Position numbers and translations under genes: made by a program
Source: Flavobacteriales bacterium
GTDB lineage: Bacteria; Bacteroidota; Bacteroidia; Flavobacteriales_G; JALEGO01
Direction of reading: 5' to 3'
Assembly: GCA_020631045.1 (NCBI GenBank)
Contig: JAHDHZ010000023.1
Coordinates: 1-38,866 of the forward strand
Length of the DNA: 38,866 nt
The notes under the pieces: generated by a model
Database searches by the model: none
What the model was told of the DNA's origin: nothing
Seen by the model: only the letters and a program-made list of their open reading frames with translations
Shown: piece after piece, positions 17,588 to 28,576 of the stretch
Layout of the letters: each line of letters opens with the position of its first letter
Position numbering within the stretch: the stretch's first letter is position 1

Positions 17588-20353
17588 ATGAAAAACATAT
17601 TCTTTACCGTCTTACTAGCTTTTACTACAGTTTTCTCAACACACAAGACTTATGCTCAAGCAGGTAATTTCACCTTTGTAGATGTCAATGGCAACTCTCA
17701 TGACCTCTACGCTTACCTCTCTCAAGGTAAACTTGTCTTTATAGAAGCCTGGAGCACTACTTGTGGTATTTGTATGTATAACATTCAACATGTAGAACAG
17801 TTGTACCAAGATTACAATCAAAACAACGGTGATGTGGTAGTCTTGAGTTTAGAGATCAATGCACATGACGACCAAGACATTATTGATGTTTTGGGCGGAA
17901 ACAATTCTTACGGAAACATAGGCAACTACCCAGGAATTGGCGGAGAAAACAATACTTACCCTCCTTTTACTGGTGGATTTAGTGTGAACTATTATCACAG
18001 TCAAAATTTATCAGCTCATTCAGGAGGCAGTGGTTTGAGTAAAACCTACATCATCAAACCAGGCCCTGGCAACGATGCCACTCAAAACGAAGTTGTTTAC
18101 GGACATTCTGGCTTGTATTCTCCAGGAAATTTATACACAAATGTAAAACCAATTTTAGATTCTTTGATCAATGCACAAGGTGGTGGAGGCAGTTCAAATC
18201 CTCCTGCTGATTGTTCTACATTGATTGTCAATGCTGGTGCTGATGCTACCATTACACAAGGCCAAACAGCTAATTTAGGCGGTAGTCCTTCTGCATCTGG
18301 AGGATACGGCTCTTATAGTTATGCTTGGACGCCTTCTAACAGTTTAAACGCAGCAACTGTTTCAAATCCTATTGCTAGCCCTAGCGCTTCTCAATGTTAC
18401 ACCCTTCAAGTAACAGATGATTCTGCCTGTGTGCAAACAGCTCAGGTATGTATCACTGTAAACCCTGACTGTAGTACCATAAATGCTGATGCAGGTGCGA
18501 ATCAAACGATTGTAGATGGCCAATCTACAAGTATTGGAGCAGCCCCGACTGGCAGTGGCGGTCAAACTCCCTACACCTATAACTGGTCAAATTCATCAAG
18601 CTTATCTAGTGCTACTGTTGCCAATCCTTTGGCGAGTCCCACTTCAAATCAATGTTATGCCCTTACCGTTACTGATGCCAATGGCTGTAGCGCAACTGAC
18701 CAGGTATGTGTAAATGTGAGTGCCAACTGTAACAGCCTTCAACTCGATGCCGGAACAGGTTCTACTATCGATGAAGGATCAAGCGTTTCATTGGGAGGCT
18801 CTCCTACAGCTCAATCTGGGTACGCGCCCTACACGTTCCAATGGACTCCGAGCTCCACCCTCAACAATTCAAGCTCCTCCAACCCCGTAGCCACCCCCTC
18901 TAGCTCAACTTGTTACTTTGTTACAGTCACCGACAATCAAGGTTGTTCTGCAAGCGATTCTATATGCATTACAGTACAACCCAATGTAAATTGCAATGCT
19001 TTAACAGCTGATGCAGGACAAAATACCACCATCAATCAAGGACAATCTTATGTTATTGGAGGGGTACCCGCAGTAAATGGCGGAACAGCACCTTATGTTT
19101 ACAGTTGGTCAAATGCCAGCAGCTTAAATGCCTCAAACATTGCTAATCCTAGTGCTACTCCTACTACAAATACTTGCTACACTTTACAAGTGACAGATGC
19201 CAATAACTGTAGTGCTACAGACCAAGTGTGCATTGATGTGAATGTTCCTGTAGATTGCTCAACACTATCAGCCAATGCTGGAAATGATGCTACAATTACT
19301 CAAGGAAATTCTATCAATTTAGGTGGTGTTCCTAGTGCAAGTGGCGGACTAGCTCCTTACAGCTATCTTTGGTCACCCGCCTCATCGATCACTAATAGTG
19401 CCAGCTTTGCAAACCCTAATGCTTCACCTGCGAGCAATACGTGCTACACCCTACAGGTAACCGATGCAAATGGATGTCAGAGTAGTGATACCATATGTAT
19501 TACTGTAAATGCAGCTATTGACTGTAGCAGTTTAATGGTGAACGCTGGTCAAAATACCTCTATAGATTTAGGTGATACTGCAAGTCTTGGAGGAAATCCT
19601 AGCGCAAGTGGTGGATACGCTCCTTACACTTACAGTTGGAGTGGAGCAAGCATTGCCTCATCAAATTCAGCTGCAAGTGTTTTAGTAAATCCATCCAGCA
19701 ACGCCTGTTATCAATTGAACGTTACTGATAACCAAGGATGTACTGGTTCTGACTCTGTGTGTGTCGACGTACAGACTGCTGCCCCTCCAAGTATGCTGAC
19801 TGAACTTGATGGCCAATACTGTAACAGTACGGTAGGTGCAAATGACATCATACACTGTGTTGAAGTATCAAATGCCACAGCCTATCAATGGAGAGTTACC
19901 AATACTTCTAATAACCAGGTACATGAATATACAAGAGTTATTCCGCACACTGGTTTTGAGCTTGGGTGGATTCAAAACATTCAGCCTAATTTCAACTACA
20001 ACATAGCTGTAAGAGCTGAAGTAAATGGCGTAATGGGCAATTACGGAAATGAATGTGCTGTGTATTTGGCTGACCTTTCTTCAAGTACGCACGTAAGTCT
20101 TGATCAGTTAAATACGATTAATGTCTACCCTAACCCTGCACGAGAAACACTCTATTTTGACCTAACCAATCAAAATATGAACATGCCATTCGCTGTGCTA
20201 AAAAATATTATCGGACAAACTGTTATGCAACAACAAGTTAACAATGGAATCAACGAAATACAACTCAATCAAGAGCTTGAATCTGGCATGTATGTTTTAG
20301 AAATTAGAGATCAAGGTCAGGTGCTGTTCTCTAAAAAAGTGATGATTCAATAA
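17588..20353 (+). CDS. T9SS-secreted protein: thioredoxin-like domain, six Ig-like repeats, sorting domain
   Basis: A 921-residue modular secreted protein. A signal peptide (about 1-24, ending TYAQ) leads into a thioredoxin/redoxin-like domain (about 25-195) with the CxxC in WSTTCGIC (C59, C62). From residue 209 to about 732 there are six tandem repeats of 86-89 residues. Each opens with a Cys (for example CSTLIVNAGADATITQG) and contains GYxPYxYxW-like, CYTLQVTD and CIxV segments. The C terminus (about 840-921), with VYPNPARETLYFDL and LESGMYVLEIRDQGQ, is a type A T9SS sorting domain. The protein should be exported across both membranes and attached to the surface or released. A CxxC redox domain on a secreted repeat protein is unusual. 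No promoter is evident. Confidence 0.9.
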   Translation: MKNIFFTVLLAFTTVFSTHKTYAQAGNFTFVDVNGNSHDLYAYLSQGKLVFIEAWSTTCGICMYNIQHVEQLYQDYNQNNGDVVVLSLEINAHDDQDIIDVLGGNNSYGNIGNYPGIGGENNTYPPFTGGFSVNYYHSQNLSAHSGGSGLSKTYIIKPGPGNDATQNEVVYGHSGLYSPGNLYTNVKPILDSLINAQGGGGSSNPPADCSTLIVNAGADATITQGQTANLGGSPSASGGYGSYSYAWTPSNSLNAATVSNPIASPSASQCYTLQVTDDSACVQTAQVCITVNPDCSTINADAGANQTIVDGQSTSIGAAPTGSGGQTPYTYNWSNSSSLSSATVANPLASPTSNQCYALTVTDANGCSATDQVCVNVSANCNSLQLDAGTGSTIDEGSSVSLGGSPTAQSGYAPYTFQWTPSSTLNNSSSSNPVATPSSSTCYFVTVTDNQGCSASDSICITVQPNVNCNALTADAGQNTTINQGQSYVIGGVPAVNGGTAPYVYSWSNASSLNASNIANPSATPTTNTCYTLQVTDANNCSATDQVCIDVNVPVDCSTLSANAGNDATITQGNSINLGGVPSASGGLAPYSYLWSPASSITNSASFANPNASPASNTCYTLQVTDANGCQSSDTICITVNAAIDCSSLMVNAGQNTSIDLGDTASLGGNPSASGGYAPYTYSWSGASIASSNSAASVLVNPSSNACYQLNVTDNQGCTGSDSVCVDVQTAAPPSMLTELDGQYCNSTVGANDIIHCVEVSNATAYQWRVTNTSNNQVHEYTRVIPHTGFELGWIQNIQPNFNYNIAVRAEVNGVMGNYGNECAVYLADLSSSTHVSLDQLNTINVYPNPARETLYFDLTNQNMNMPFAVLKNIIGQTVMQQQVNNGINEIQLNQELESGMYVLEIRDQGQVLFSKKVMIQ
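18212..19783 (+). repeat. Six tandem coding repeats (258-267 bp units)
   Basis: Within the T9SS protein the units begin at 18212, 18470, 18728, 18992, 19256 and 19523, each at the codon for the leading Cys. Unit length is 258, 258, 264, 264 and 267 bp, and the last unit ends near 19783. Conserved parts encode NAG/DAG, GGxPSASGGxxPYxYxW, NPxAxPxxxxCYTLQVTD and a closing VCIxV. DNA identity is patchy, indicating an old duplication rather than recent expansion. Confidence 0.85.
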
Positions 20354-20379: not shown

Positions 20380-22992
20380 TTATTCTTTGATGATTTTGAA
20401 GACTTGTTTTCTCTGAGCTGAATAAACCACAAGCGTATAGATCCCCTGACTAAGATTTGAACTATTTAATTGTTCTTGCTTACTACTTAAAGATTTGTCG
20501 ACAACCAATGCCCCTGTGATGTCAAAGATTTGAGCATTGGTCAGATTTTCTTCAATACTTTTTAATTGTATAATCGATTTAGTTGGATTAGGAAAAACCT
20601 GAATTTGGCCTGTACTCAAACTTTGTTCAACACTGTTGGGATACGCAATAAAACAAGTGTATAGCTCCCAATTGGTAAGTTCACCTCCATCGCCTGAAGC
20701 CTGGTCATCTATGTACAGTTTCCAAGTACCAGAAAGGGGTTTGTTTGAGAATATATCTAAGGCATCTGAAGCAAAAACAGTTTGCCCATCATCAAAAGGA
20801 CAAGCAATGTTCGCTAAAGCCAAATCAGAAAATGAAACATTGAAATTAAAACTACTCCCTCCGCAAATATCAGCAAACAAAGTAGCTTGTGTTTGGTCAG
20901 GATGTTCTAAATACAAATGTAAATCTGCCATAAATGTATGATTTCCTGTTACATTGCGCACCTCAATTTTTGAAATTGTTCCTGATTGACCAATTGGCAA
21001 TTCAGATATGTTCATATTGGCAGGACCTGATGATATGAGTAGCGGCAAATCTGTAGCTGAATAACTCACACATAACTCATTGGCTGTAGTAAAACTGATC
21101 AGCTCTGAAAAATTAGATTGTGCACATTTGTTTTGTGACAACACACGTGCGTAATACTGTGTATTTGCCTGTAAACCAGCTAAACAATTTGAATCAGACA
21201 CTAGAGTGTCTAAAAAGAGATTTGAAAACATCGAATCTAATGCAATTTGTAATCGATATTGCTCAGTAGTTTGAACAGCATTCCAAGTTAATTGAAGTGT
21301 GGTAAGTACATTTTCTTGTTGATTTGCAGGAAAAGTAAATGTTGTTGAAGGCAACTGATCTTCTAAGAGATAGACTGATAATACTTCTGTATAGGTTTCT
21401 GACGAATCACTAGCCTGAATTAAAATATCATTTTGCCCAAAATTCAGTGAACTTGTTTCTATGTTTAATTGTGTGCTCAAGCCAACCTGTAAGGTATCGT
21501 CTTGAAATGCATAAACAATAGAGGTGTCTTGAAGGCTTAAATAAACAGTGTCTGAAAAATTCACGCCAGCTGTAATGTCTATCACTAAAGTGCTGTCTTG
21601 ACAAACTACGTTTAATGATGGGCTGAGTGAGAACAACAGGCAAGAGGTATTGAATTTTCCGTCTAAAACACTTAGTCCAAGTGAGAGTGGATCAAGCCAA
21701 TCTTTTAAACGACTGGTTGAATCACCCTGACCTTCCCATGACTTGTGAAACCATCCATAAGCATCTGGATCATCGTTACCACAAGCAGCAGTACCTCCAA
21801 ATAATTGCCCTACAACTCTTTTATCTTGATTAAAAAGGGGTGAACCTGATGACCCACCTTCTGTGGTTCCTAAATCCCAGTCAATGACTTTCAGATAATT
21901 TCCGTTCGCGTTCTCTTGGCGGTTGGCATCAGAGATTACTAAAGCATCATTTTCAAAGCTAATGCGTTTTTCTTCACTTCTAGGGTGGTGAATCGCAATG
22001 GCTGAAGTGGGTACATCAGCGCTTCTATCCCAGCCTGCAAAAAAACAGTTTGCTGTTTCTAATACTGGGTCATCTAATTCAAGTAAGGTAAAGTCAGTCA
22101 GTGATGAAGTTGCTCTTAAAACTGATCCTGAGTTAAATTCTATGAGTTGTCCATCACCATTTGCCCCACTAGCTGCTGATCCGACAGGCCTACAAATACT
22201 GTTCTGATAATTCCAATAAGCTACTAAAGTAGAAGCAGAAGCCGCCGTAAAATTACAATGGTCAGCAGTCATAAAATAAGGCCTACAATCTTGAGCGGTG
22301 TTATTTACCAAAAAACCTGTACAACTTGATACGCCATTTTTTGTAGTTGTTGCAACCGATTGAATGATGTCTCTGTAATTGTCTACTTGTGCAAATCCAT
22401 CAACATCAGAACAGGCTACATCAAGATTGCAACTACCAGAAGCTTGTGAAGAGGCTTTTGCGAATCCCATAAAATCGTGGTTCAAACTTGACAATTGAAG
22501 CTTAACTTGCTGCTTTTGTTGCTGCTCTACACTTAAAATTACATACAGCGCATCTGAATGTACAATGGGTGTCCATAACTGCTGATGAACTTCATTGTCT
22601 TTTGATGTAAAGACAGGAAGTCTTGATTTCAAATCTGCACTTATGATTTCTAAAGATGCAGAGCTAGGCAATCGAAATTGGGTAAATCCAAGGTTTAAAG
22701 AATGTGCATTTGATGAAATAAGTTTGATGACCCAATGAGTTTTTCCATGTTCACCCATGACCCAAACACCACTGTTTAAAGGATTTAAATCTACATGTTG
22801 TGCTTTAGCAAAATAGATTTCTGAGCTCTTGCCTTGACTTGTTCTTCTTTGGAGTTCTCTTTGTTTAAGAATTGCATTGTCTAATAAGGGCGCTACAAAT
22901 GACGGAACCTCTGAAAGATCAATGCCTCTGTAAACTTGAGCATTGAAAGAAATAGAAAAACCCCAAAAACAAATTGCAAAAAATAGACGCAT
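20380..22992 (-). CDS. T9SS-secreted trypsin-like serine protease with P domain
   Basis: An 870-residue secreted protease. A signal peptide (1-19, ending FNAQ) and a long prosegment (about 20-185) precede an S1 domain resembling lysyl endopeptidases. The triad residues are His in FMTADHCN (about H245), Asp in SSLTDFTLLEL (about D300) and Ser in TEGGSSGSPLF (about S382), with many cysteines that probably form disulfides. A fibronectin-like stretch (about 555-635) follows. Then comes a proprotein-convertase P domain (PIGQSGTISKIEVRNVTG to SGTWKLYIDDQASGDGGELT, about 650-775). The C terminus is a type A T9SS sorting domain (FPNPTKSIIQL, LSQGIYTLVVYS). It converges with the preceding gene and has a TATCTTTA near-consensus box upstream (23013-23006). 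Confidence 0.9.
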   Translation of the reverse strand: MRLFFAICFWGFSISFNAQVYRGIDLSEVPSFVAPLLDNAILKQRELQRRTSQGKSSEIYFAKAQHVDLNPLNSGVWVMGEHGKTHWVIKLISSNAHSLNLGFTQFRLPSSASLEIISADLKSRLPVFTSKDNEVHQQLWTPIVHSDALYVILSVEQQQKQQVKLQLSSLNHDFMGFAKASSQASGSCNLDVACSDVDGFAQVDNYRDIIQSVATTTKNGVSSCTGFLVNNTAQDCRPYFMTADHCNFTAASASTLVAYWNYQNSICRPVGSAASGANGDGQLIEFNSGSVLRATSSLTDFTLLELDDPVLETANCFFAGWDRSADVPTSAIAIHHPRSEEKRISFENDALVISDANRQENANGNYLKVIDWDLGTTEGGSSGSPLFNQDKRVVGQLFGGTAACGNDDPDAYGWFHKSWEGQGDSTSRLKDWLDPLSLGLSVLDGKFNTSCLLFSLSPSLNVVCQDSTLVIDITAGVNFSDTVYLSLQDTSIVYAFQDDTLQVGLSTQLNIETSSLNFGQNDILIQASDSSETYTEVLSVYLLEDQLPSTTFTFPANQQENVLTTLQLTWNAVQTTEQYRLQIALDSMFSNLFLDTLVSDSNCLAGLQANTQYYARVLSQNKCAQSNFSELISFTTANELCVSYSATDLPLLISSGPANMNISELPIGQSGTISKIEVRNVTGNHTFMADLHLYLEHPDQTQATLFADICGGSSFNFNVSFSDLALANIACPFDDGQTVFASDALDIFSNKPLSGTWKLYIDDQASGDGGELTNWELYTCFIAYPNSVEQSLSTGQIQVFPNPTKSIIQLKSIEENLTNAQIFDITGALVVDKSLSSKQEQLNSSNLSQGIYTLVVYSAQRKQVFKIIKE

Positions 22993-23048: not shown

Positions 23049-24290
23049 TTAAACAGAAGCACTTAATTTTTGCTCAGACTGCAACTTTTTAATAAAGTCT
23101 TTGAGCTTTACAAAGGCCTCAATGGTTTGTTCAACATCTTTAAGACTATGAGCCGCCGTAGGAATTAACCTCAATAAAATCATGCCTTTAGGAATCACTG
23201 GATACACCACCATTGAAGTAAATATACCGTGGGTATCTCGTAGTTCTTTTACAATGATTCTGGCATCTTCAATTGATCCTTGAATGTATACAGGAGTCAC
23301 ACAACTATTGGTGTTGCCAATATCAAAACCAGCGCCTTTCAATCCATTTTGTAAGGCATTGGTAATTTCCCAAAGCTTTGCTCTATAAGATGGATTCTCT
23401 TGAATAAGCTTCAACCTAAACAGGGCACTTTCAACAAAAGGCATAGGCAAAGATTTGGCAAAAATCTGCGAGCGCATCGTATATTGCAAGTGTTGCACAA
23501 TTTCTTTGGTAGATGCTACAAATGCTCCAATGGAGGCAAATGACTTAGCAAATGTTGCAAAGTATACATCAATATCATCTTGAATACCTTGTTCAAAGCC
23601 AGCTCCTTTTCCACCCTCTCCTAACACACCAAACCCATGAGCATCATCAACCATCAACCTAAAGTCATAGTTTTTTTTAAGTGCCACAATCTCTTTGAGT
23701 TTGCCTTGATCGCCACGCATTCCAAAAACTCCTTCTGAGATCACTAAAATACCACCACCTGTTTCGTTGGTGATTTTCTTCGCACGCTCAAGGCACTTTG
23801 TCAAGCTTTCAATATCGTTATGCTTAAAAGTAAACTTCTTACCCAAATGCAGAGACACGCCATCTACAATACAGGCATGAGATTCGTAATCATATACAAT
23901 TACATCATGACGATCAACCAAACTCTGCACAATAGAAACAATGCCCTGGTAGCCAAAGTTTAATAAAAAGCTTGCTTGCTTGCCTACGTGCTTGGCCAAT
24001 TCGTTTTGAAGCTTCTCATGCGATGAGGTATGCCCTGACATCATGCGAGACCCCATTGGATAGGCCAAGCCCCACTCCTGGGTAACTTTGGTGTCATTTT
24101 CTCTCACTTCAGGAATGTTTCCAATGCCCAAGTAATTGTTGATGCTCCAACAAATTACTTCTCTGCCATGAAACTGCATTCTTGGGCCAATTTCTCCTTC
24201 TAGTTTAGGAAACATATAATACCCTTCACTTGATGCCGCATAATCTTTTAAAGGGCCTTGTTTAATCGCGATTTTTTCAAATAAATCCAT
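23049..24290 (-). CDS. Alpha-oxoamine synthase, CapA/serine palmitoyltransferase-like
   Basis: These PLP enzymes condense an amino acid with an acyl thioester, losing CO2. Visible are the PLP-stacking His in YESHACIVDG (about H138), DDAHGFGVLG (D215, H218) and the Schiff-base Lys in FATFAKSFASIGAF (about K249). Also present are NNYLGIGN and SRMMSGHTSSHEKL. Closest in kind are the serine palmitoyltransferases and cysteate acyltransferases of Bacteroidota. It is the last gene of a four-gene cluster containing a CysK-like enzyme, an SDR and an acyltransferase-like protein. The CysK-like neighbour favours cysteate as substrate, giving 3-dehydrocapnine for sulfonolipids. Serine (sphingoid base) or a 2-amino-3-ketobutyrate ligase activity remain alternatives. 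A possible internal promoter lies 22 nt upstream. Confidence 0.85.
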   Translation of the reverse strand: MDLFEKIAIKQGPLKDYAASSEGYYMFPKLEGEIGPRMQFHGREVICWSINNYLGIGNIPEVRENDTKVTQEWGLAYPMGSRMMSGHTSSHEKLQNELAKHVGKQASFLLNFGYQGIVSIVQSLVDRHDVIVYDYESHACIVDGVSLHLGKKFTFKHNDIESLTKCLERAKKITNETGGGILVISEGVFGMRGDQGKLKEIVALKKNYDFRLMVDDAHGFGVLGEGGKGAGFEQGIQDDIDVYFATFAKSFASIGAFVASTKEIVQHLQYTMRSQIFAKSLPMPFVESALFRLKLIQENPSYRAKLWEITNALQNGLKGAGFDIGNTNSCVTPVYIQGSIEDARIIVKELRDTHGIFTSMVVYPVIPKGMILLRLIPTAAHSLKDVEQTIEAFVKLKDFIKKLQSEQKLSASV

Positions 24291-24312
24291 AATCTGTAGA
24301 ATTAAATCAGTG

Positions 24313-24320
24313 CAAATTTA
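24313..24320 (-). promoter_or_regulatory. Possible internal promoter for the alpha-oxoamine synthase gene
   Basis: TAAATTTG on the minus strand matches TAnnTTTG, 22 nt before ATG 24290, in the 39-nt gap after the CysK-like gene. This is the only real gap in the cluster, so separate expression of the last gene is possible. Confidence 0.35.
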
Positions 24321-24329
24321 AGAAACACT

Positions 24330-25313
24330 TTAGACTTCTGAAGCTTGTTTGGGCTGCAAAGTACTTGAAAAGTGCTTGTTAAGGTATTTTAAGCCATGAT
24401 CTGCAAAAATGAGCACAACTTGATCGGTAGTTTTTAATTTAGAAGCATACTGATCTAAAGCATGTAAGACTGCTCCTGAACTACCTCCACAAAACACACC
24501 TTCTTTTTTTAGTAACTCCTGCAAAAGTTGTTCGCTTCTTTCATCATCAATTGTGTACACATGATCAATCAAATCTGATTTAAAAATACTGGGAATAATG
24601 TCTTTTCCTACACCTTCTAACTTGGTCTGTTTTTTGAGCTGATCATTAAACTGACCAGTTTCTACATAAGGCTTTAAAACAGATCCTTTTGCATCAGCAC
24701 AAATGATTTGTATATCGGTATTCTTAGACTTTAAAAAATTGGCTATTCCTGAAATTGTGCCTGTAGTACTTGCACTTGAAAACACGTGGGTTAATAGACC
24801 ATTTGTTTGTTCATATATTTCTTTGCCTGTCGTTAAATAATGAGCCTGAGCATTTTGTTGATTGTGATTTTGATTTAAATAAAAATAAGACGAATTTTGA
24901 TCTGACAAACGCTTTGCCACTGAATAATAAGATTCAGGATGATCGTGTTTCACAACTGCTGGGCACAGTATTACCTCAGCTCCGTAAGCCAACAGTTGAT
25001 CAATTTTAGCTTTTGCTGAACTATCTTTTACTGTCAAAATGCATTTATACCCTTTAGCCAATGCAATTTGAGCGATCGCTAGCCCTGTATTTCCACTAGT
25101 CGCATCGACCAAAGTCATGCCAGGTTTGAGCTGCGCAGTTTTTTCAGCTTGTTCTATAATGTACTTAACAATGCGATCTTTAATTGAAAGAGAGGGGTTA
25201 AAACACTCCAATTTAGCTAAGACCTCACAACCATATTTATCAGAAAAGTAAGGCAATCGTACGATTGGAGTGTTGCCTACCAAGTCTAATATGCTATTGT
25301 AAATCTTAGCCAT
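24330..25313 (-). CDS. CysK/CBS-fold PLP enzyme, candidate cysteate synthase
   Basis: A fold-type II PLP enzyme of the cysteine synthase/cystathionine beta-synthase group. DLVGNTPIVRL is the usual N terminus, the PLP Lys is in NPSLSIKDRI (about K45), the substrate loop is ATSGNTGLAIA and the phosphate-binding loop STTGTISGIANFLK. GVFCGGSSGAVLHAL is the C-terminal PLP motif. There is no regulatory CBS domain. The family makes C-S bonds by beta-replacement on serine derivatives. With sulfite as nucleophile this gives cysteate, the precursor of capnine. Its place between an SDR and an alpha-oxoamine synthase supports that role; ordinary cysteine synthase remains possible. The start overlaps the SDR stop by 8 nt. 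Confidence 0.85.
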   Translation of the reverse strand: MAKIYNSILDLVGNTPIVRLPYFSDKYGCEVLAKLECFNPSLSIKDRIVKYIIEQAEKTAQLKPGMTLVDATSGNTGLAIAQIALAKGYKCILTVKDSSAKAKIDQLLAYGAEVILCPAVVKHDHPESYYSVAKRLSDQNSSYFYLNQNHNQQNAQAHYLTTGKEIYEQTNGLLTHVFSSASTTGTISGIANFLKSKNTDIQIICADAKGSVLKPYVETGQFNDQLKKQTKLEGVGKDIIPSIFKSDLIDHVYTIDDERSEQLLQELLKKEGVFCGGSSGAVLHALDQYASKLKTTDQVVLIFADHGLKYLNKHFSSTLQPKQASEV

Positions 25314-26046
25314 CTAGAGATACTTTTTTACGCATCAAATGTACATAAAGACCAGGGAAATACTTATTCAACACGTAAGATAACCGAGCTGTTTTCCCTA
25401 AAAACAGTCTGTTTTTTCTTTTGATTTGAGCCTGCACCATTTTTTGAGCAACGTATTCAGCGCTCAATACTTCATTTACTGTTTGATTTGATGTTGCTGC
25501 TTTTCGAATATCGGTTTGTACAAAAGTAGGATAAGTCATCATTACATGTAGACTAGGGCGTTCTGCCTGCAATACCTTGTAAAATCCTTCTAAGGCAAAC
25601 TTCGAAGCGCAATAAGCCGCTCTACCAATGACAGGTGCATAACCAGCAACTGACGAAACTACCACCACACTTCCTTTTCTTTGTTCAAGCTCTTCTAAAA
25701 ACAATTGTGTTAAATAAGTACTGCCTTTATAGTTGATGTCTGCAAGGCGCGAAATTTGAGTAACATCAAAACCTTCACCCAAGCGCTGGATGTAGCTCAC
25801 TCCGGCATTGTTGATCAACACATCTATACTTTGAGCATACTTTTCATACAGTGCTTTGCATTGATCTAAATCAGCAACATCACACTGTGCTATTTCTGAA
25901 TTTGGGCCTAAGCTTTTTTGCAGGGCTTGTAATTTTTGAAGGGCTCTTCCAACCAAAACAACAACAAAATCTTCTTTGAGATAAGCTTCTGCCAAAGCAC
26001 GACCAATGCCTCCATACGCCCCGGTAATCAACACTTTCTTTTTCAT
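25306..26046 (-). CDS. Short-chain dehydrogenase/reductase, candidate 3-ketolipid reductase
   Basis: A classical SDR of 246 aa. The cofactor motif is TGAYGGIG, NNAG is at about 79-82, and the catalytic Ser, Tyr and Lys lie in VVSSVAGYAPVIGRAAYCASK (about S132, Y145, K149). Arg in LVGRALQK after beta-2 fits NADPH preference. A C-terminal stretch with YVLNKYFPGLYVHLMRKK is basic and amphipathic, suggesting membrane association. It overlaps the acyltransferase-like gene by 4 nt and the CysK-like gene by 8 nt, so it is in the same operon. The likely job is reduction of the 3-keto group made by the alpha-oxoamine synthase (CapB-like, or 3-ketosphinganine reductase). Confidence 0.83.
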   Translation of the reverse strand: MKKKVLITGAYGGIGRALAEAYLKEDFVVVLVGRALQKLQALQKSLGPNSEIAQCDVADLDQCKALYEKYAQSIDVLINNAGVSYIQRLGEGFDVTQISRLADINYKGSTYLTQLFLEELEQRKGSVVVVSSVAGYAPVIGRAAYCASKFALEGFYKVLQAERPSLHVMMTYPTFVQTDIRKAATSNQTVNEVLSAEYVAQKMVQAQIKRKNRLFLGKTARLSYVLNKYFPGLYVHLMRKKVSLDG

Positions 26047-27230
26047 CTCAATTCAATTTTTTGGCTGATAGGCATGCGCTCAAATGGGGCATTTCGATCA
26101 AGTAAATAACGATAAGTATGATGTGTTTTCACAATTTCAACCTCTCCCATTGACTTGACCATAGCAATCATTCTGGGGTTAAAATCACCCACCCAATTCA
26201 TTTCAATGGTTTTGTAAGCCATCTTTTTTAGGTCATTGTGTGCAGTTAAAACCATGGCCTGCACCACACCATCTCCTTTAAAAGCAGGATCAACCCCAAA
26301 AACCAAGCCCAACATTTTTGAGGGCTTGTAAATGGTTTTATAGAACAAAAACTTGAGTTTTGAAAACAGACCAAAGTCACCTTTTAGGTATTTAAACCAC
26401 TGATTAATCTCAGGAATATTTACAAAAAAACTAATCGCTTCACCTTTAAAATAGCCAAACCAAATGATGCGTTTATCAATGATTGGCTTGAGCTGACGCA
26501 TGATTTTCAAGGCTTGCTGTTCAGACATTTCTGACACGCCAATATGTTGCGCCCAAGCTTTGTTGTAAACTGATCGAAAGTCATTTGCAGCTCTCAAAAG
26601 CGATTTGCCTTTTAAATTCTCGAAGCTATAATCAGAATTCTTTAAAATTTCTTTTGCTTTGCCGGCAAATTGCTCATCAATTTTTATGCTGGTAGAACTC
26701 GCAAAAGTATACTGCTTAAAATAAAGCTGAAATCCAAACCGCTCAAAAAGATCTTTGTAATAAGGCAAATGGTAATTGCTTTGATAATTAGGCGGCAAAT
26801 CAAATCCATCAACCAACAAGCCCCACCATTTATCACGTGCTCCGAAATTAATGGGTCCATCAATGGCTGTTACCTTTTTTTGTTTGAGCCACTTTAGAGC
26901 CACTTCAAACAACTCATTTGCTATGGCTTGATCATTCACGCACTCAAAAAAACCTATCGATCCTATTATTTGATCAGTTTCTTTATAAGCAGTATCAGGA
27001 TTTATGAATGCAGCAATGCGTCCTAAAGGTTGTTGATTTTGATTATAAATAACCCACCGTTGAGCCTCGCCTTTTTTTTGAAATAATTTATTTTTTTTTT
27101 GATCAAAAATACCTTCAACATCTTGTTTCAGAGCAAACACATAACTTACATTGTCTTTATAGAGTAACTGTATTACTCTGTGAAAATCTGAAATACTTTG
27201 TTTTGACTGAACGATTTGAAGCCTGATCAT
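26043..27230 (-). CDS. GNAT-fold acyltransferase-like protein, candidate lipid N-acyltransferase
   Basis: A 395-residue soluble protein that looks like a tandem acyl-CoA N-acyltransferase fold. WVIYNQNQQPLGRIAAFINP and IGSIGFFECVNDQAIANELF resemble a GNAT core. DGPINFGARDKWWGLLVDGF and YYKDLFERFGFQLYFKQY are signature stretches I associate with a Bacteroidota family usually annotated as hypothetical. It is the first gene of the cluster and overlaps the SDR gene. By position it may N-acylate the long-chain amine, as the GNAT-type bacterial ceramide synthase does in Caulobacter. A near-consensus promoter lies directly upstream. The fold call is moderate and the substrate is inferred. Confidence 0.7.
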   Translation of the reverse strand: MIRLQIVQSKQSISDFHRVIQLLYKDNVSYVFALKQDVEGIFDQKKNKLFQKKGEAQRWVIYNQNQQPLGRIAAFINPDTAYKETDQIIGSIGFFECVNDQAIANELFEVALKWLKQKKVTAIDGPINFGARDKWWGLLVDGFDLPPNYQSNYHLPYYKDLFERFGFQLYFKQYTFASSTSIKIDEQFAGKAKEILKNSDYSFENLKGKSLLRAANDFRSVYNKAWAQHIGVSEMSEQQALKIMRQLKPIIDKRIIWFGYFKGEAISFFVNIPEINQWFKYLKGDFGLFSKLKFLFYKTIYKPSKMLGLVFGVDPAFKGDGVVQAMVLTAHNDLKKMAYKTIEMNWVGDFNPRMIAMVKSMGEVEIVKTHHTYRYLLDRNAPFERMPISQKIELR

Positions 27231-27237
27231 TGGCCTA

Positions 27238-27268
27238 CAAAGGTGCTGATTTTGAGCTTGTCAAACAA
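27238..27268 (-). promoter_or_regulatory. Predicted promoter of the lipid-synthesis cluster
   Basis: On the minus strand TTG (27268-27266), 20 nt, then CACCTTTG (27245-27238; one mismatch to TAnnTTTG), ending 7 nt before ATG 27230. The -33 TTG lies inside a small inverted repeat, CTTGT-CAA-ACAAG (27257-27269). Confidence 0.45.
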
Positions 27269-27294
27269 GTGACATTTCTTAGAAAGTGTTTACT

Positions 27295-27302
27295 TATCTT
27301 TG
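27295..27302 (+). promoter_or_regulatory. -7 box of the fumarylacetoacetase gene
   Basis: TATCTTTG matches TAnnTTTG and ends 14 nt before ATG 27317. It lies inside the N-terminal extension of the ORF track entry (TTG 27230), which shows that the extension is not translated. Confidence 0.55.
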
Positions 27303-27316
27303 AACAAATTTATTTT

Positions 27317-28576
27317 ATGCCCTTATCTGCAAACGACCCTTCTAAAAAAAGCTGGCTTGAAATTTCTAAAGACCACGATTTCTCAATTCAAAACCTTCCG
27401 TTTGGCATTTTCTCTACGCCTGAAAAAACCAAACGCGTAGGCGTTGCTCTGGGCGATTACATCATTGATTTGGCAGAACTTTCAAAAGCTGGATACTTAG
27501 ATGTTCAAGCAGATGTATTAAACCAAGATGTGTTAAACCCTTTTATTAAACTTGGCAAGCAAACTACAAGAGCAGTTCGAAATCAAATCTCAGATCTTTT
27601 TTCAACAGATTCTGTGCTTAAATCTGATACTGAAGCGCAAAAAAATATTCTAGTAGATCGACTCTCTGCTAAAATGCACATGCCTTTAAGGGTGGGCGAC
27701 TATACCGATTTTTACTCTTCTAAAGATCACGCTACCAATGTAGGCACCATGTTTAGAGACCCTGAAAATGCCTTGTTGCCCAATTGGAAGCACTTACCTG
27801 TGGCCTACCACGGCAGAGCCTCTTCGATTATTGTATCGGGCCAAGATATTCACCGCCCTAAGGGGCAACAAAAGCCTAATGATGGCCCGCCTGTTTTTGG
27901 GCCCACTAAGTTGCTTGATTTTGAACTTGAAATGGCTTTTATCACATATGATGGAAAGCCTTTAGGGCAGTCTATCTCAACTAGTGAGGCTGAAGAACAC
28001 ATTTTTGGCATGTGTCTGTTCAACGATTGGTCGGCACGAGACATTCAAAAGTGGGAATATGTACCTTTAGGACCTTTTTTAGCCAAGAACTTTGCCTCTT
28101 CGATCTCGCCTTGGATTGTTACCCTAGACGCCCTTGAGCCTTTTAGAGTAAAAGGTGAAACCCAAGAGCCCGAAGTGCTAGATTACTTGAAGTTTAAGGG
28201 CGATAAAAACATTGAGATTAACCTTGAGGTATTTATACAACCTGAAAACCAACAAGAAAATTTGGTGTGCAGCTCAAACTACAAGCACATGTACTGGAAC
28301 ATGAATCAACAATTGGCACATCATACCGTTTCGGGATGCAACATCAATGCGGGTGATATGATGGCATCGGGCACGATCAGTGGGCCTACACCTGAGAGTT
28401 ATGGATCGATGTTAGAGCTTTCTTGGAGAGGTACTAAACCTTTGAGGTTGAGCGATGGGTCAGAGCGTAAATTTATTTTAGATCACGATACGGTTATCAT
28501 GCGTGGATGGAGTGAGAAAGATGGAGTGCGCGTGGGCTTTGGAGAGGTCAAAACCAAGGTCTTACCCGCTATATAA
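27317..28576 (+). CDS. fahA: Fumarylacetoacetase
   Basis: The enzyme hydrolyses 4-fumarylacetoacetate to fumarate and acetoacetate, the last step of phenylalanine/tyrosine breakdown. Conservation with the animal enzyme is striking: DYTDFYSSKDHATNVGTMF, LPVAYHGRASSIIVSG, DFELEMAF, NDWSARDIQKWEYVPLGPFL, HHTVSGCNINAGDMMASGTI and SYGSMLELSWRGTKP. It contains the metal and catalytic Asp, Glu and His region. From ATG 27317 the protein is 419 aa, the usual length. The rest of the pathway is not in the window, but the upstream PTPS-FolE operon could supply pterin for phenylalanine hydroxylase. It is divergent from the lipid cluster. Confidence 0.95.
   Translation: MPLSANDPSKKSWLEISKDHDFSIQNLPFGIFSTPEKTKRVGVALGDYIIDLAELSKAGYLDVQADVLNQDVLNPFIKLGKQTTRAVRNQISDLFSTDSVLKSDTEAQKNILVDRLSAKMHMPLRVGDYTDFYSSKDHATNVGTMFRDPENALLPNWKHLPVAYHGRASSIIVSGQDIHRPKGQQKPNDGPPVFGPTKLLDFELEMAFITYDGKPLGQSISTSEAEEHIFGMCLFNDWSARDIQKWEYVPLGPFLAKNFASSISPWIVTLDALEPFRVKGETQEPEVLDYLKFKGDKNIEINLEVFIQPENQQENLVCSSNYKHMYWNMNQQLAHHTVSGCNINAGDMMASGTISGPTPESYGSMLELSWRGTKPLRLSDGSERKFILDHDTVIMRGWSEKDGVRVGFGEVKTKVLPAI

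Follow-up and report, generated by a model that had tools for sequence, protein, structure and literature searches.

A putative four-gene sulfonolipid cassette in a Flavobacteriales genome, with a candidate N-acyltransferase of the bacterial ceramide synthase family

A capnine pathway consisting of CapA, CapB, and CapC was reportedly described by Liu et al. in 2022. These enzymes have been assigned in Capnocytophaga ochracea and Ornithobacterium (PMC10191378; PMC12927429), and a different cysteate synthase is in use in Alistipes (PMC10191378). Several 3-ketocapnine reductases are known, with genes that lie apart from cfat in C. gleum and A. finegoldii, and identity among 3-ketocapnine and 3-ketosphinganine reductases is itself low (PMC11211663). 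For the N-acylation of sulfonolipids, the accessible literature names no gene; key subscription literature was outside this scope, so no priority is claimed here. For ceramides, YghO is the named counterpart of the Caulobacter ceramide N-acyltransferase CC_1154 (PMC9386255).

The window analyzed here, i.e., the whole stretch of DNA under study, comprises 38,866 nucleotides of contig JAHDHZ010000023.1 from the Flavobacteriales bacterium assembly GCA_020631045.1. Its minus strand carries four complete genes at positions 23049–27230, with open reading frames that match the coordinates of the initial annotation exactly. In the order of transcription, these are a GNAT, an SDR, a CysK-fold enzyme, and an alpha-oxoamine synthase:

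26043–27230, minus strand: GNAT, 395 aa; YghO/bacterial ceramide synthase (bCerS) family; proposed capnine or 3-ketocapnine N-acyltransferase
25306–26046, minus strand: SDR, 246 aa; classical SDR; proposed 3-ketocapnine reductase (CapC/KCR role)
24330–25313, minus strand: PALP/CysK-fold PLP enzyme, 327 aa; CysK/CBS fold; divergent CapA relative; proposed cysteate synthase
23049–24290, minus strand: alpha-oxoamine synthase, 413 aa; assigned by sequence as a cysteate fatty-acyltransferase (CFAT/CapB/SulA)

Four genes on one strand, the first three overlapping by 4–8 nt, had been described in the initial annotation, and the open reading frames, the overlaps (4 nt for GNAT/SDR and 8 nt for SDR/CysK-like), and the Pfam folds agree with this layout. 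A gap of 39 nt separates the CysK-like gene from the synthase gene. The Pfam families are PF00106 for the SDR, PF00291 for the CysK-fold enzyme, PF00155 for the synthase, and, as a weak match exactly at the cut-off (20.7 bits), PF00583 for the GNAT. The identical four-gene order is present in two further Bacteroidota MAGs (loci L002 and L003), both labelled Flavobacteriaceae, with protein identities to the window cluster of 45–46%, 49–52%, 56%, and 72% across the four genes. Because these two loci share all four genes with the order kept, the grouping is not due to chance. Where 1.3 kb or more of upstream sequence is available (69 CFAT loci), a CapA-like gene is directly upstream in 19 loci and an SDR gene in 13. 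Three enzyme roles are common to the CapA-CapB-CapC pathway and the window cassette, and the consecutive accessions of CapA and CapB in C. ochracea resemble the adjacent CapA-like and CFAT genes in the window. However, the window cluster also holds a reductase and a GNAT, and its CysK-like enzyme is divergent.

In the intergenic region 24291–24329, upstream of the CFAT gene, TAAATTTG (window positions 24313–24320) resembles the Bacteroidota -7 box TAnnTTTG. Given this -7-box-like element, the CFAT gene may have its own promoter in addition to transcription with the cluster. Adjoining the cassette, positions 20380–22992 and 17588–20353 encode large proteins bearing C-terminal signals for type IX secretion. 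One has a trypsin-like domain, the other SprB and PKD repeats; these neighbors may be set beside the link between sulfonolipids and gliding in the same phylum. A fumarylacetoacetase gene (27230–28576) is divergent from the cassette. The TTG listed as its start meets that of the GNAT gene, and translation probably begins further inside the gene. The same-genus genome G001 retains the fumarylacetoacetase gene without the cassette.

Based on its sequence, the synthase can be firmly assigned as a cysteate fatty-acyltransferase (CapB/SulA). It scored 577 bits against the cysteate-C-fatty acyltransferase 28eh (62% full-length identity) and 514 bits against SulA of A. finegoldii (PDB 7U7H; 57%), both of which have solved structures, compared with 215 bits against the best-scoring serine palmitoyltransferase (SPT; 3A2B). 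As the initial annotation had anticipated, it groups with characterized CFAT/SulA proteins rather than with SPT, KBL, or BioF: in the maximum-likelihood tree, it is placed inside a CFAT clade (support 100/100) with 7U7H and 28eh, apart from SPT and KBL/BioF. The roles of the active-site residues, including that of Lys281 in separating SulA from SPT, have been described previously (PMC9304779). In SulA numbering, Lys281, Lys251, His140, Asp217, His220, and Arg376 are all kept in the window protein, in which the PLP lysine is K249 (SulA K251) and the CFAT-specific lysine is K279 (SulA K281); SPTs have Ala at SulA position 281. The likeness to 7U7H and 28eh extends over the full length and all listed active-site residues including Lys281, whereas the window CFAT differs from Alistipes SulA in sitting in a four-gene cassette. 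Against the SPT model NF047600, the synthase scored 286 bits, below a curated cut-off (640) that every SPT of the sampled genomes also missed, such that the tree and Lys281 are better tests for SPT identity.

The window CFAT groups with five proteins from Flavobacteriaceae-labelled MAGs. Constraining it with same-order CFATs was rejected (AU test, p=1.4e-6), and vertical inheritance of this gene was rejected on this basis. CFAT is absent from the same-genus G001 and the same-family G002, while a fragment of CFAT in the same-family G003 falls among the CFATs native to the order. For most of the same-order CFAT loci examined, the neighbors were read by eye as BamD, an omega-like protein, and CoaBC. 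Because the window CFAT does not group with those of its own order and a same-genus genome lacks CFAT, the cassette was probably acquired horizontally. The GC content (37.6% for the cluster and 36.8% for the window) provides no base-composition sign of a recent transfer, suggesting that the transfer was old or from a similar genome.

By sequence, the GNAT is a full-length homolog of the YghO/bacterial ceramide synthase family. It shares 23% identity over 381 aa with YghO of E. coli BL21 (BLASTP; E=4e-24), and a profile built from 49 close GNAT relatives alone finds YghO at 2.9e-43. An alignment of 30 family members including YghO contains ten invariant residues (e.g., N47, G125, P126, Y158, N223, P273, G312, and N351). 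In BL21, yghO is four genes from spt. The kinship to the Caulobacter-type ceramide synthase suggested in the initial annotation is thus backed through this E. coli homolog. Linkage to a long-chain-base synthase is common to the GNAT and the bCerS proteins (Caulobacter CCNA_01212/CC_1154, BL21 YghO, and B. fragilis BF9343_4218), and the likeness measured on YghO alone consists of full-length homology and invariant residues common to both. The differences are the 23% identity to YghO, the partner (CFAT rather than SPT), and a C-terminal extension particular to the CFAT-linked branch. A phmmer search of the PDB with the GNAT gave no match, the family profile matched only small GNAT domains in the PDB, and no NCBIfam model covers the family. 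An AlphaFold model of the GNAT, based on three input sequences, had a pLDDT of 46.8, which is too low for a fold search.

The genomic linkage of this family to SPT was assessed in 64 Bacteroidota genomes, each from a different genus and none from the window's class, including 61 with an SPT scoring at least 459 bits. In 39 of these 61 genera, a GNAT homolog directly follows SPT in the same orientation, with a gap of 38–262 bp, compared with an expectation of about 0.02 under random placement. Because the genomes were hand-picked from a list with the GNAT in 363 of 396, its presence is not a free test, whereas its adjacency is. For CFAT, a distant family member lies tail to tail with the gene in seven of 13 loci of the flavobacterial family f7 (less than 100 bp apart in six), such that, together with the window-type cassette, the GNAT family adjoins CFAT in two different arrangements. 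In the GNAT tree, SPT-linked homologs are found in several basal branches, apart from a CFAT-linked branch (support 97/90) that includes the CFAT-adjacent f7 GNATs, those of CFAT-bearing same-class genomes, and the window group. CFAT and an SPT-like synthase occur together in many genomes of f27. In ten of these, a second GNAT falls inside the CFAT branch, and the SPT-adjacent f27 copies are inside an SPT branch. None of the second copies adjoins CFAT; adjacency to CFAT was found neither in f27 nor in same-class genomes with comparable coordinates. Some f27 genomes (group g84) have one GNAT only.

Several other GNAT loci may be noted. The second, CFAT-branch GNAT of f27 has a conserved neighborhood away from CFAT (L227–L237), with SurE-, PanB-, and FabZ-like genes (read by eye) and an alpha/beta hydrolase. 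In the f27 genome G411 (L218), another alpha-oxoamine synthase is located about 5 kb upstream of a CapA-CFAT pair, and an SPT-adjacent GNAT is elsewhere. The CFAT-carrying G331 has a tandem duplicate (L140:1489–3858), whose copies share 42% and 38% identity with the window GNAT. Very distant members of about 340 aa (21–23% identity; L089, L090, and L091) are present in G021, G025, and G015, respectively, which are same-order CFAT carriers.

The kinship to YghO, the adjacency to SPT and CFAT, the partner-matched tree, and the second copies in the CFAT branch make the GNAT the leading candidate for the enzyme that N-acylates sulfonolipids, in line with the role that the initial annotation had suggested. 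The further idea that the last step is shared between sulfono- and sphingolipids holds at the level of one GNAT family but not of one enzyme, given the separate SPT- and CFAT-linked branches. One Bacteroidota GNAT family would thus serve both long-chain-base pathways, with some branches occurring alongside SPT and another alongside CFAT. It is likely that the GNAT represents the sulfonolipid N-acyltransferase that is absent from the published pathway, that the family is split into SPT-ceramide and CFAT-sulfonolipid branches, and that the pathway can occur as a mobile four-gene cassette.

Alternatively, the GNAT may acylate something else, such as an amino acid or a peptide, and be in the cluster by chance. 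GNATs are functionally diverse, the Pfam match is weak, and not every CFAT carrier has the GNAT. In a set of 31 genomes of close relatives including the window's own, 28 have CFAT, and only 11 gave any match to the GNAT family in a profile search, weak or distant ones included. The family was undetected by profile in 17 of the 28 CFAT carriers, which must have another enzyme, free capnine, or a version too distant to detect; no genome among the 31 has the GNAT without CFAT. This explanation is nonetheless improbable given the relationship to YghO, the adjacency to SPT in 39 of 61 genera, and the two separate arrangements with CFAT. Even less plausible, to the point of being nearly negligible, is that the synthase is an SPT or KBL and that the locus yields ordinary sphingolipids. 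The synthase has the fold and PLP site of SPT, but Lys281, the tree, and the bit scores all point to CFAT, and such an identity was rejected. For the CysK-like enzyme, a role as a sulfur-supplying variant of cysteine or cystathionine synthase, with cysteate coming from elsewhere, has more in its favor. Its best NCBIfam model is CapA (NF053679), yet it scored 357 bits, short of the curated cut-off of 600 (L002, 355; L003, 373; 9k2p, 625), and a second CysK-like enzyme of the genome (L202, contig 65) scored higher (425). Moreover, its phosphate cup is STTGT, compared with mostly ASTGGT in its subclade and GTGGT in 9k2p, a CapA-family enzyme of solved structure. Against such a role, CapA remains the best model, the genome owns another CysK-like enzyme, and the cassette enzyme groups with CapA-like enzymes (SH-aLRT 98; CBS separate), every member of this group being directly beside CFAT (gaps of -3 to 127 bp). 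In the same tree, the paralog L202 is near the base with its placement not resolved. The sulfur-supplying role is thus unlikely, and the enzyme is likely a cysteate synthase, mainly from context rather than sequence. The claim in the initial annotation that this enzyme points to cysteate is backed by the CFAT-adjacent homologs more than by the CapA score. As for the housekeeping cysteine synthases considered there, the cassette enzyme groups with CFAT-adjacent homologs, and the genome carries an additional CysK-like gene elsewhere.

The SDR superfamily is huge, and substrate specificity is unreadable from sequence. The window SDR has the classical cofactor and catalytic motifs (TGAYGGIG, NNAG, and YCASK as YxxxK), and a role as the 3-ketocapnine reductase may reasonably be inferred from its class, motifs, and cluster position. 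Compared by class and motifs, it resembles the 3-ketocapnine/3-ketosphinganine reductases (CapC, KCRs, and BT_0972), which are classical SDRs with TGxxxGxG and YxxxK. Sulfonolipids may be made with the GNAT acylating 3-ketocapnine first and the reductase acting afterwards, as proposed for Caulobacter ceramides, in which bCerS would precede the reductase (PMC11087976); the order in sulfonolipids has also been called unsettled (PMC9304779). However, the SDR shows almost no relationship to CerR, the epimerase-like enzyme encoded in the E. coli sphingolipid cluster (E=0.006 over 38 aa), and its N-terminus starts directly in the nucleotide-binding fold with no signal peptide evident by eye, such that cytoplasmic reduction before acylation is possible. 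Acylation before reduction is a serious possibility, but not the favored one.

In the proposed pathway, the CysK-like enzyme would produce cysteate, with O-phosphoserine and sulfite as the substrates by analogy with CapA. The SDR would convert the ketone to capnine, as its class and position suggest. Based on homology and linkage, the GNAT would join a second acyl chain to the amine, either before or after the reductase acts, yielding N-acyl-capnine of the sulfobacin type. The four genes likely constitute a self-contained cassette for sulfonolipids, probably acquired horizontally, in which the GNAT adds the second acyl chain. The pathway itself is already known; what appears to be new is the arrangement of the four genes, the divergence of the CysK-like enzyme, and a bCerS-family GNAT as the candidate for the final step. 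Gliding motility is supported by sulfonolipids, which also induce choanoflagellates to develop rosettes and have effects on inflammation in mammals (PMC9304779; PMC3463246). A specific GNAT family and a compact cassette that could be rebuilt in E. coli would open the final step, and the question of whether reduction precedes acylation, to direct testing.
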